Made by a program: the position numbers and the translations under genes
The notes under the pieces: generated by a model
Seen by the model: only the letters and a program-made list of their open reading frames with translations
Told to the model about the DNA's origin: nothing
Database searches by the model: none
In this document: positions 4,133 to 36,879 of the stretch, one piece after another
Layout: every line of letters begins with the position of its first letter
Position numbering within the stretch: position 1 is the first letter of the stretch
Virus record (IMG/VR): IMGVR_UViG_3300042896_000066
Span: 1 to 36,879 of that record
Source: a virus
DNA length: 36,879 nucleotides
Strand: one strand, 5' to 3'

Positions 4133-4162
4133 ATTATATAGAGTTATAAATACCCATGTCAA
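4133..4162 (-). promoter_or_regulatory. Strong leftward early promoter
   Basis: On the minus strand a perfect TTGACA (4162-4157) is followed after 18 bases by a perfect TATAAT (4138-4133). It lies 45 bases before the first leftward open frame and is the only strong promoter seen at the head of the leftward arm. Recognition by host sigma-70 RNA polymerase is expected from the consensus. Confidence 0.85.
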
Positions 4163-4211
4163 CTTGAAGGACATTATCGTAGTGTTGTATTTTAGAGACA
4201 CTATAGAATAC

Positions 4212-4290
4212 TTATCCACAGATTGTCAGCCTGCGTGAGTCTTATATAAGACCTGATATTGTGGATAACTATAACTACCAGTGTGGATAA
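4212..4290. promoter_or_regulatory. Cluster of three perfect DnaA boxes
   Basis: TTATCCACA occurs at 4212-4220 on the plus strand and at 4260-4268 and 4282-4290 on the minus strand. All three match the strongest E. coli DnaA box exactly. The last two are in the same orientation, 22 bp apart (two helical turns), which favours cooperative binding. A 14-bp perfect palindrome, GTCTTATATAAGAC (4239-4252), lies between the first and second. Confidence 0.8.
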
Positions 4291-4370
4291 CTTTGGCTGG
4301 TGCTGGTATGGCTTGACCCCATGATAGGCGCTTGTAGGACGTTTAAAGCCTTCGAAGCATGGCACGATAC

Positions 4371-4398
4371 TTGCCCCCTAGAATGATGAGACTATAAT
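4371..4398 (+). promoter_or_regulatory. Possible weak rightward promoter
   Basis: TTGCCC (4371-4376), 16 bases, then TATAAT (4393-4398). The -10 is perfect and the -35 poor. It would read into the repeat region, perhaps making a short leader or primer RNA. Weak evidence. Confidence 0.3.
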
Positions 4399-4424
4399 GT
4401 GACTGATGAGTCTACATTGTGACT
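4385..4424. repeat. 20-bp tandem direct repeat
   Basis: Two adjacent 20-bp units, 4385-4404 and 4405-4424, each starting GATGAG and ending TGTGACT, with three mismatches. They lie between the DnaA boxes and the 12-bp repeats. Confidence 0.7.
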
Positions 4425-4464
4425 TGATAGGTGTCTTCGTAGGCACCATCTCAGTCCCCCGCTT

Positions 4465-4512
4465 CGCAGTCATCGTCGCAGTCATCGTCGCAGTCATCGT
4501 CGCAGTCATCGT
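4465..4512. repeat. Four perfect copies of a 12-bp repeat
   Basis: CGCAGTCATCGT is repeated four times without a mismatch, 48 bp in all. On the minus strand it encodes Asp-Asp-Asp-Cys repeats in an 84-codon open frame, but that frame has no other sign of being a gene. It is better read as an iteron array or recent slippage product. Confidence 0.9.
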
Positions 4513-4537
4513 CACAGTATACGCACAAACGGTGGAT

Positions 4538-4617
4538 GATGTATATCAGTGATGGCTTATATAAGCATTGACGTATATAACCAGCTTCGATGTATATCAG
4601 TGATGACTTATATAAGC
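4538..4617. repeat. 29-bp direct repeat, two copies
   Basis: Bases 4538-4566 and 4589-4617 match at 28 of 29 positions; each runs from GATGTATATCAG to CTTATATAAGC. The start-to-start distance is 51 bp, near five helical turns. The TTATATAAG core also occurs in the palindrome at 4239-4252 and, in part, at 4625-4640. Confidence 0.85.
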
Positions 4618-4719
4618 GTATGACTATATAAGCATATAAGCATACATTGATGGGGGGAGGGTCATCGGAGACTGTATAACTTTTACAGGAGCCTCTGAAG
4701 TTCATAAAAAGGTAAAACT

Positions 4720-4888
4720 GAGCACTAGCGTTGGAAAGACCTACTAAGCAAACTAAATAGATTTAATCCCTTATAGACTATAAAGTCATAAGTGTCTGAT
4801 CTATATAGACAAAAGAGTAATATAGACAAATAGCTGTTAATGTTAATATAAAAGTTATTATCTTAGGTGTACTTCAACGCTAGTGCTC
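4720..4888. repeat. 14-bp inverted repeat around an AT-rich segment
   Basis: GAGCACTAGCGTTG (4720-4733) is repeated exactly in inverted form at 4875-4888. The 141 bases between are very AT-rich and contain two copies of ATATAGACAAA. This could be a duplex-unwinding element bounded by protein sites, or a cruciform-forming or packaging site. Confidence 0.75.
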
Positions 4889-4994
4889 ATAGGTCGAAGG
4901 ACTGAACAGTACGTAGAAGTACGTAGTCTAAGAAGTTCACCATGTGAAAGAAGTGTAAAGTTTAAGTAAAGTTCATGCAAAGTAGAAGAAAAGC

Positions 4995-5023
4995 TTGACA
5001 TCTAAGAAATAGTAGTGTATAAT
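4995..5023 (+). promoter_or_regulatory. Consensus rightward promoter for the virion arm
   Basis: TTGACA (4995-5000), 17 bases, TATAAT (5018-5023): a perfect sigma-70 promoter. The spacer contains CTAAGAA (5002-5008), and the 14-bp sequence TAGTCTAAGAAGTT lies just downstream (5031-5044), so a regulator binding this motif could control it. It leads to the terminase genes after a leader of about 250 bases. Confidence 0.85.
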
Positions 5024-5158
5024 ATCTATATAGTCTAAGAAGTTTGACCCTCTTCTAAGACACAATGTGTACAGTTGAGTAAACGAACTGAGAAGTAAAT
5101 ACACACTTAGATAAATAAATTAAAGTAATATTAATAAAGTATTTACTTTAATGTTTAA

Positions 5159-5213
5159 ACTTCTTAGTGACTTCTTAGTGACTTCTTAGTGACTTCTTAG
5201 TGACTTCATAGTT
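5159..5213. repeat. 11-bp tandem repeats upstream of the small terminase
   Basis: ACTTCTTAGTG is repeated from 5159 to 5202 in four exact units, followed by a fifth, diverged unit to 5213. The core ACTTCTTAG also appears inverted (CTAAGAAGT) at 4928-4936 and 5034-5042. The unit is close to one helical turn, so bound proteins would line up on one face. Candidates are a transcription regulator, an initiator, or the small terminase whose gene starts 70 bp on. Confidence 0.9.
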
Positions 5214-5225
5214 ACTTTAAAGTAA
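5212..5225. repeat. 14-bp perfect palindrome
   Basis: TTACTTTAAAGTAA is a perfect palindrome directly after the 11-bp tandem repeats. Copies of its half, TTACTTTAA and TAAAGTAA, also occur at about 5121-5152. Possible operator in the leader of the small-terminase gene. Confidence 0.6.
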
Positions 5226-5283
5226 ATACTTATAGAATAAACAATTGATGATGATTGTCTTCCTCAGAAAGGATAAAAGACTA

Positions 5284-5757
5284 ATGGATATAGAAACAAT
5301 ACTTGTTGAAGAAACACAAGAAGATAGGTCTTTAAGAGCAAAGGCTTTTACTATCAGTAAACGTAAAGATGTGACACCAATAGTACCTAAAGTTCGTGGC
5401 AAAGGTAGACCACCTAAAGCCGATCTTCAAGCAGTTAAAGACAGAACTAAAGGTAAAGTAGGTCGGCCTGTCGGTGACACTGGAAGGTTGATGGAATTTA
5501 AAGAGCGTCTACTAGCTACAGGTGGTACTAGAATCTTAGACAAGATGATTAGCATTGCACTTAATGACGAGCATCCCGGTCAGATGGCTGCTATCAAAAT
5601 GTCTATAGATCGTCTGTTACCTCTCAGTGCCTTTGATGCCTCTAAGAACTCTGCTGGCTCTATGCCTCAGATTTCAATTAACATAACCTCGCTGGGTCAA
5701 TCCAGTATCTCAGCAATAGAAACCATAGAAGACATTACAGATATAGACACTGAGTAA
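5284..5757 (+). CDS. Probable small terminase subunit (DNA-binding)
   Basis: I start the 157-residue protein at ATG 5284, which has an AAAGGA ribosome site ten bases upstream; an earlier in-frame ATG at 5245 has none. Residues around 38-65 carry two AT-hook-like sequences, G-R-P-P-K and G-R-P-V-G, within a very basic stretch. A helical segment follows that could oligomerise. It is the first gene of the packaging block, just before the large terminase, the usual place for the subunit that recognises the phage DNA. No family match can be made by eye, so the name rests on position and basic character. Confidence 0.65.
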   Translation: MDIETILVEETQEDRSLRAKAFTISKRKDVTPIVPKVRGKGRPPKADLQAVKDRTKGKVGRPVGDTGRLMEFKERLLATGGTRILDKMISIALNDEHPGQMAAIKMSIDRLLPLSAFDASKNSAGSMPQISINITSLGQSSISAIETIEDITDIDTE

Positions 5758-35797: not shown

Positions 35798-36808
35798 TCA
35801 TTCATATTTACACAACCACGCATTACTAATCACCTTGAAAGAGTTCTCTGTATCACTAAGTGACTTGAACACCAAGCCCTCACGTTGAGAATCATTTAAG
35901 TTACTCTCACCCTCTGCCTGAAACAATAGAACACTCATGTCATATTCTAACTCAAATCCTTCATAGAGAACAGGAACATGGTTAAGTGCAAGCCTTCTAC
36001 ATACTTCCCGGCGTTCGTAAGGAGACATATATTCTTGTGTTTGAATATTGAATATATCATAGACAAAGAACATAGCCTTACTCAGACCATACTGATTACC
36101 TTGGATACCGGGGCCACATAGTTCACCCTGAATAGCAAAGTCCCAATACTTATCAAATTCAGCCATGCGTTCTTGAAGGCCGTGCCATTTGGCTACTTCC
36201 CAGAATGTGTTGCCTTCTGTGTCCTTTAAATCAATGTTACGGCTACATACACCGAACTCACCTTTGTGCTGATAGACAGTCATTGAACTACCGTCCAGCT
36301 TCTCAGTAACTTCCCACTTTACACCTTCTTGCTTCCATTCATCATATGCTTTTGACAAGTTCTGAATGCGTGCCTGATCTGTCTTAGGAATGAACGTAGG
36401 AAAGTTACCCTTAGCTGACCCCGCTAGGCAGGCTGGGATGGGCTTTTCATACAATTGAATACCTAGGTAGTCTGTCAGGTCTGTACCCTCTTCTACGGAG
36501 CCTATGCCATCTGTTACCAAGTCGAGCAACAATCCCTGAGAGATAATCCCCTTGAACTTCTTAGTCCGTAGCCGTTCACCCACTACATCATTGAACATCC
36601 GTTCTCTATTGCCTGCAAGGAAGGGTGCAAGCTGAATCGGAACCCATGAATCAATCTCAACATAGATTGCTAAGGTATGTTCTTTGAATTGACCCTTCTT
36701 CACAACAACATCCCAGCCCCCGATGCGGGCAAGTTCAATGAAGTCTGCACCCTGAATAGGTACGATCTGGTCAATGTTGCGTACAGTAGCTAGTTTACGT
36801 TCAGTCAT
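35798..36808 (-). CDS. RNA ligase, Rnl5 (DRB0094/DraRnl)-like
   Basis: A 336-residue enzyme that seals nicks or breaks in RNA with ATP. I start at ATG 36808, which has an AGGAAG ribosome site seven bases upstream; an in-frame TTG lies two codons before it. The N-terminal half (1-110) looks like the extra OB domain of Deinococcus-type Rnl5 ligases (G-W-D-V-V-V-K-K-G-Q ... Y-V-E-I-D). The nucleotidyltransferase part has motif I with Lys170 (E-K-L-D-G-S), C-S-R-N (188-191), F-V-Y-D (248-251), motif IV E-G-L-V-F-K (310-315) and motif V F-K-V-I-S (324-328). All catalytic motifs are intact. It is coupled to a zinc-ribbon gene upstream. Confidence 0.9.
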   Translation of the reverse strand: MTERKLATVRNIDQIVPIQGADFIELARIGGWDVVVKKGQFKEHTLAIYVEIDSWVPIQLAPFLAGNRERMFNDVVGERLRTKKFKGIISQGLLLDLVTDGIGSVEEGTDLTDYLGIQLYEKPIPACLAGSAKGNFPTFIPKTDQARIQNLSKAYDEWKQEGVKWEVTEKLDGSSMTVYQHKGEFGVCSRNIDLKDTEGNTFWEVAKWHGLQERMAEFDKYWDFAIQGELCGPGIQGNQYGLSKAMFFVYDIFNIQTQEYMSPYERREVCRRLALNHVPVLYEGFELEYDMSVLLFQAEGESNLNDSQREGLVFKSLSDTENSFKVISNAWLCKYE

Positions 36809-36879
36809 TTTCAATCTTCCTGTGGTTGTTAAAGGTTCTTGCTCTCAATTCTTGTTTTGCATTTGGCTTCTCACTAAAC
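36753..36879. repeat. Terminal direct repeat, right copy (circular-assembly overlap)
   Basis: Identical to bases 1-127. It includes the start of the RNA ligase and the 3' part of the zinc-ribbon gene. The genome closes by joining base 36752 to base 1. Confidence 0.95.
36801..36879 (-). CDS. Zinc-ribbon gene, duplicated 3' end only (partial)
   Basis: This is the 3' part of the 115-residue zinc-ribbon gene whose full copy lies at 49-396; it runs off the right edge. It is present because of the circular overlap. Its TGA (36803-36801) overlaps the RNA ligase ATG at 36808. Confidence 0.9.
   Translation of the reverse strand, partial: FSEKPNAKQELRARTFNNHRKIEND

Follow-up and report, generated by a model that had tools for sequence, protein, structure and literature searches.

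A short module in the divergent gap upstream of the putative small terminase gene (terS) combines three perfect DnaA boxes with the palindrome GTCTTATATAAGAC, which lies between them and matches the core of the predicted operator of SdhR, a GntR/HutC-type regulator. It occupies positions 4212–4290 of the window, by which we mean the whole 36,879-base viral record that was analysed, and it is the lasting part of a region otherwise crowded with repeats. Several unrelated phages carry this arrangement and bacterial chromosomes do not, a distribution suggesting that the phages use it to read the growth state of their hosts. We read the lasting core as an exchangeable cassette that senses the host and controls outward transcription, an interpretation to which we assign about an even chance and in which binding and regulation are predicted from the sites.

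Genome setting and repeat families

The two ends of the record overlap exactly over 127 bp (positions 1–127 and 36753–36879), so the genome is a 36,752-bp circle. Its leftward genes encode a T7-type primase-helicase, a family A polymerase, an exonuclease, endonuclease I, ThyX and a class II-type ribonucleotide reductase; the leftward cluster also includes an RNA ligase-family gene with a PHA02142 OB-fold domain (35798–36814). The rightward genes encode a T4-like terminase, portal and capsid. The region studied is the gap from a Gp88-like gene to terS (5284–5757, plus strand), a gene without family match that was called by its position upstream of terL. The phage is a freshwater one, and its presumed host is that of the isolates that share the module. 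To our knowledge, clustered near-perfect DnaA boxes are not expected in lytic phages that possess their own primase-helicase and polymerase.

The preliminary description had likened the gap to an iteron-plus-DnaA origin and had listed several repeat families. The repeat units on that list are all in place on the plus strand: a degenerate 20-bp pair (4384–4424) whose register is not kept; a 12-bp array of TCGCAGTCATCG (4464–4518; 4.6 copies, 97%) that is private to this genome; two 29-bp units (4538–4566 and 4589–4617) that contain CTTATATAAG and no DnaA box and are absent in close relatives; and an 11-bp array in the terS leader (5159–5217; 5.4 copies, 95%). The inverted repeat is likewise present, with perfect arms of 15 bp (4719–4733 and 4875–4889) rather than the 14 bp claimed; it surrounds conserved A+T-rich DNA, and both arms are private. 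Conservation was judged by alignment with three close relatives, L002, L001 and L171, and by the refuting condition that came with the preliminary description this alignment rejects the iteron reading: none of the three has the 12-bp units, the 29-bp units or the inverted repeat, and the 11-bp unit is present in five copies here, two in L002, two in L001 and none in L171. The DnaA box cluster of the proposed origin therefore stands, and its iterons do not, most of the repeats being private to this genome.

The three boxes, the palindrome and a sigma-54-type element are kept in L002 and L171 and are all missing in L001. The close relatives largely retain a hairpin, a G-run, the rightward promoter and the A+T-rich block. 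The G-run GGGGGGAGGG (4652–4661, plus strand) is family-wide and marks the boundary between an exchangeable left arm and a conserved right part; this boundary is sharp, and may be an arm exchange point or a packaging-related site. Next to it, the block GTATAACTTTTACAGGAGCCTCTGAAGTTCATAAAAAGG (4673–4711) is near-identical in close relatives and can still be recognised in distant ones. The contigs of several relatives begin 40–125 bp upstream of terS, near the 11-bp array; these are probably assembly breaks.

DnaA boxes and the SdhR-type palindrome

The perfect boxes lie at 4212–4220 (box 1, TTATCCACA, plus strand, kept in L002 and L171), 4260–4268 (box 2, minus strand) and 4282–4290 (box 3, minus strand). 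Box 2 is 9 bp from the inner 10-mer of the palindrome, where the typical gap is 8–10 bp, and box 3 is 22 bp, or two helical turns, from box 2. DnaA boxes had been claimed for the region, and the claim is well supported: these three are the sole TTATNCACA matches in the 36.75-kb circle (about 1.9 expected by composition), and boxes are concentrated in the same place in relatives, where the 1.5 kb before terS has 1.05/kb against 0.026/kb elsewhere (about 40-fold), with counts per genome taken from virus records that are possibly incomplete. Relative to the palindrome, the preferred box positions are +14 and +36 on the minus strand, about −23 and −75 on the plus strand, and about −52 on the minus strand. 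A scan of the boxless relatives for degenerate boxes found none above background (0.17/kb vs 0.38). The densest cluster seen, nine boxes in about 600 bp, is at 45.9–46.5 kb of the L115 record (G311), and a module subtype with repeated GACCCAGTGGGT beside the boxes occurs in L170, L104, L123, L127, L174 and L185.

The palindrome (4239–4252) had been overlooked in the preliminary description. It is the single GTCTTATATAAGAC site in the window when up to two mismatches are allowed, and it stood at first as an unexplained motif; its SdhR identity came by way of host sites and a comparative-genomics study in which the predicted SdhR operator is TCTTATGTCTTATATAAGACATAAGA, whose core the phage palindrome matches (PMC4494728). 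The motif is based on this one paper and on host context, the latter resolved to the order level (Burkholderiales). Allowing at most one mismatch, ATGTCTTATATAAGACAT was found in 84 of 300 Burkholderiales genomes, and no match was seen for the reversed control. Nearly all of the fetched sites (29 of 30) adjoin a gene for a HutC-type regulator, mdh, aceA, icd or acnB; the neighbours were mostly identified by their N-termini, and Pfam and NCBIfam confirmed representatives. The outer half-sites (TCTTAT...ATAAGA) that directly flank the core were also compared: the host consensus is TATGTCTTATATAAGACATA and the phage form is AGTCTTATATAAGACT, and the exact phage form is also present at host acnB and icd. 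Judged by sequence, the palindrome between the boxes is apparently an operator for SdhR, a host HutC-type regulator of energy metabolism. In L023, a row of SdhR-type operators with no DnaA box lies about 760–810 bp upstream of terS, where relatives carry the DnaA module.

Distribution of the module

Viruses and 257 Gb of prokaryote genomes were scanned with the pattern CTTATATAAG-N0-30-TGTGGATAA, which returned at least 120 viral stretches and 48 matches in the prokaryote genomes. Among the matches listed, the gap between palindrome and box is 8–10 bp in 116 of 142 viral matches; the gap distribution of the 48 genome matches is flat, as chance would produce. The module is nearly absent from chromosomes. 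It lies 725–1060 bp upstream of terS, in mixed orientation relative to that gene (48 vs 16), and it extends beyond the window's family to Limnohabitans phage DC31 and Curvibacter phage P26059A. The window's terminase was missing from 29 of 30 module records tested, some of which are short fragments or weak matches, and the module-bearing records outside the family carry several other terminase and portal families. Within the family, the presence of boxes flips repeatedly along the terminase tree. The right parts of the pairs L006/L007 and L018/L023 are 97–99% identical and their left parts are unrelated, the change from one to the other falling near the G-run; these pairs constitute a natural experiment, in which near-identical late genes occur with and without the module.

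Possible sources of the module were also considered. A copy of the host oriC was rejected, since nothing like the module turned up in 34 Burkholderiales dnaA loci, as was a copy from chromosomes in general, given the chance-like matches of the 257-Gb scan; a plasmid source was set aside when the DC31 module matched no plasmid. No description of the module was found in the literature searched, which left most subscription journals out of reach, and the papers on DC31 and P26059A make no mention of DnaA boxes.

Promoters and RNA elements

Two sigma-70 promoters point apart, as the preliminary description had it, and both match the consensus at 12 of 12 positions. The leftward one (TTGACA-18-TATAAT, 4133–4162, minus strand) faces the leftward genes and lies about 50 bp from box 1; the rightward one (TTGACA-17-TATAAT, 4995–5023, plus strand) faces terS with a leader of about 260 nt, and many relatives have similar promoters about 260–310 bp upstream of terS. 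At the leftward position L002 has TTGACT-18-TATAAT, and L001 lacks the −35 hexamer as it lacks the module. A fixed distance of the leftward promoter throughout the family was considered and rejected, as it holds in close relatives only.

A rightward sigma-54-type −24/−12 element, TGGCACG-ATAC-TTGC (4360–4374, plus strand), escaped the first reading of the region. It fits the sigma-54 pattern GG-N10-GC with TGGCAC and TTGC, and is present in L002 and L171 as GGCA[CT]GATACTTGC and absent in L001. Of 86 distinct modules, 30 have elements of this type no more than 200 bp away, all of them directed outward (36 matches vs 1.45 expected), and these counts are not independent events, since the modules are related by descent; about two thirds of modules are without a recognisable element. 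DC31 and similar phages carry such elements on both sides of the module. A working sigma-54 promoter would depend on RpoN and on an enhancer-binding activator. In the window, a weaker sigma-70-like sequence, TTGCCC-16-TATAAT (4371–4398, plus strand), overlaps the sigma-54-type element; L002 and L171 retain its TATAAT. Downstream of these rightward elements is a hairpin with a UUCG loop (GGTGTC-TTCG-TAGGCACC, then the C-run CAGTCCCCC; 4430–4447, plus strand; z −3.8), the sequence of which is largely kept in L171, L002 and L001 and matched no known RNA family in Rfam.

Possible functions of the module

A model for the module as a host-sensing cassette can be proposed. Host DnaA would bind the near-perfect boxes, two to five in number and fixed in phase, and SdhR, the host HutC-type GntR regulator of TCA-cycle genes, would bind the operator between them. 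The cassette lies between outward promoters, in this genome sigma-70 leftwards and sigma-54-type plus sigma-70-like rightwards; joint occupancy by DnaA and SdhR would report the replication readiness and TCA-cycle state of the host and would set the timing of outward phage transcription. The cassette is optional and is swapped along with the early genome arm. The sites, their spacing, their spread among phages, their near-absence from chromosomes and the host setting of the palindrome are observed; that the two proteins bind, in which direction they regulate and whether replication is affected is what we infer.

Several lines of evidence support the host-sensing cassette: i) the three perfect boxes are the only ones in the genome, and boxes are enriched 40-fold upstream of terS; ii) the gap is 8–10 bp in viral matches and flat in genomes; iii) the palindrome coincides with the SdhR operator core, which in hosts lies beside TCA-type genes; iv) the module is common to phages with other terminases, and its sigma-54-type elements point outward; and v) L023 carries SdhR-type operators without boxes at the same place. 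The model is weakened by a leftward promoter distance that is fixed in close relatives only and by the mixed orientation (48/16), by the two thirds or so of modules in which no sigma-54-type element is recognisable, by the SdhR motif, which draws on one paper and on host context, and by the host of this phage being a presumed one. A more specific formulation, which we advance tentatively and regard as possible rather than probable, is that freshwater Comamonadaceae are infected by unrelated phages that have in common a mobile sensor of host state, in which DnaA boxes are arrayed around a TCA-regulator operator with outward sigma-54-type promoters, and which would tie the onset of phage transcription and replication to the host initiator and to carbon flux.

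The data do not support an obligatory DnaA/iteron origin, for the box cluster can be missing while the replication enzymes stay the same: the boxless near-complete relatives share primase-helicase and polymerase with the boxed ones (primase-helicase 45–49% and polymerase 67–71% to the window's) and show 1–2 scattered boxes per whole record. It is a doubtful but serious alternative that the module is a conditional origin, at which DnaA on the boxes would open nearby DNA and help to load the phage primase-helicase, while SdhR would make firing depend on metabolic state, in the way that regulators act at some bacterial origins. The box cluster is unique in the genome and its phase is conserved, but the orientation of the module varies, L001 does without it, and the near-complete relatives with the same replication enzymes have those scattered boxes only. 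Conserved A+T-rich DNA lies about 500–900 bp from the boxes, but the computed helical stability, a check suggested with the original origin claim, places no unstable segment next to them, the least stable DNA being about 550–900 bp away, around 4811 and 5140. The circle has its GC-skew minimum close to the boxes, where the gene directions diverge, whereas the modules of DC31 and P26059A are 15–16 kb from the skew minimum and the skew there follows gene direction, so that GC skew was discarded as uninformative. Among the proteins scanned, many of them small and without family match, no initiator-like gene was found.

That the module acts instead as a double decoy we consider improbable. Rising phage copies would soak up DnaA, so that host initiation stops as with datA, and SdhR, so that TCA-cycle gene expression is altered; several perfect boxes and a near-perfect operator, optional and common to unrelated phages, would suit this role, but it needs neither fixed spacing nor outward promoters at the module, and a genome offers only 3–5 boxes. 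Very unlikely indeed is a packaging (pac/cos) or arm-junction region in which the repeats would be terminase sites and the boxes incidental. The region does adjoin terS, with a sharp mosaic boundary at the G-run and some contigs that begin in or near it, but this explanation covers the right half of the region only and leaves the DnaA/palindrome geometry in phages with other terminases unexplained; moreover, circular assembly of the window and a T4-like terL suit headful packaging, and contig starts are scattered. An attempt to place cos or pac from contig ends failed on this scatter. If the host-sensing cassette is correct, phages would read host replication and metabolic state together, through an element common to lineages with different terminases, and this cis element is testable in two cultivated phage-host pairs, those of Limnohabitans phage DC31 and Curvibacter phage P26059A.

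Comparison with known systems

In iteron/DnaA plasmid origins and in phage P1 oriR, DnaA boxes are clustered beside repeats and A+T-rich DNA, and the region described here has the same look. It differs from them in that no Rep gene was found, the repeat arrays are not conserved, no unwinding element is adjacent, and relatives with the same replication proteins are without the module. E. coli datA and DARS are DnaA-box clusters that lie outside an origin and include the site of a second protein, a composition that the module resembles; the module is phage-borne, however, has a GntR/HutC-type operator instead of an IHF site and comes with outward promoters. Reading of host regulators by phage elements is known as well, for example in CTXphi with LexA and at the IHF sites in phage Mu. 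The likeness is that a host transcription factor would steer the phage programme via phage DNA, whereas here two unrelated host factors, an initiator and a TCA regulator, would be read in a fixed geometry and in several lineages. With the SdhR regulon of Burkholderiales (PMC4494728), the module has in common the same 14-bp palindrome core; the host sites of that regulon belong to TCA-cycle genes, and DnaA boxes accompany them at no more than chance level, unlike in the phages.
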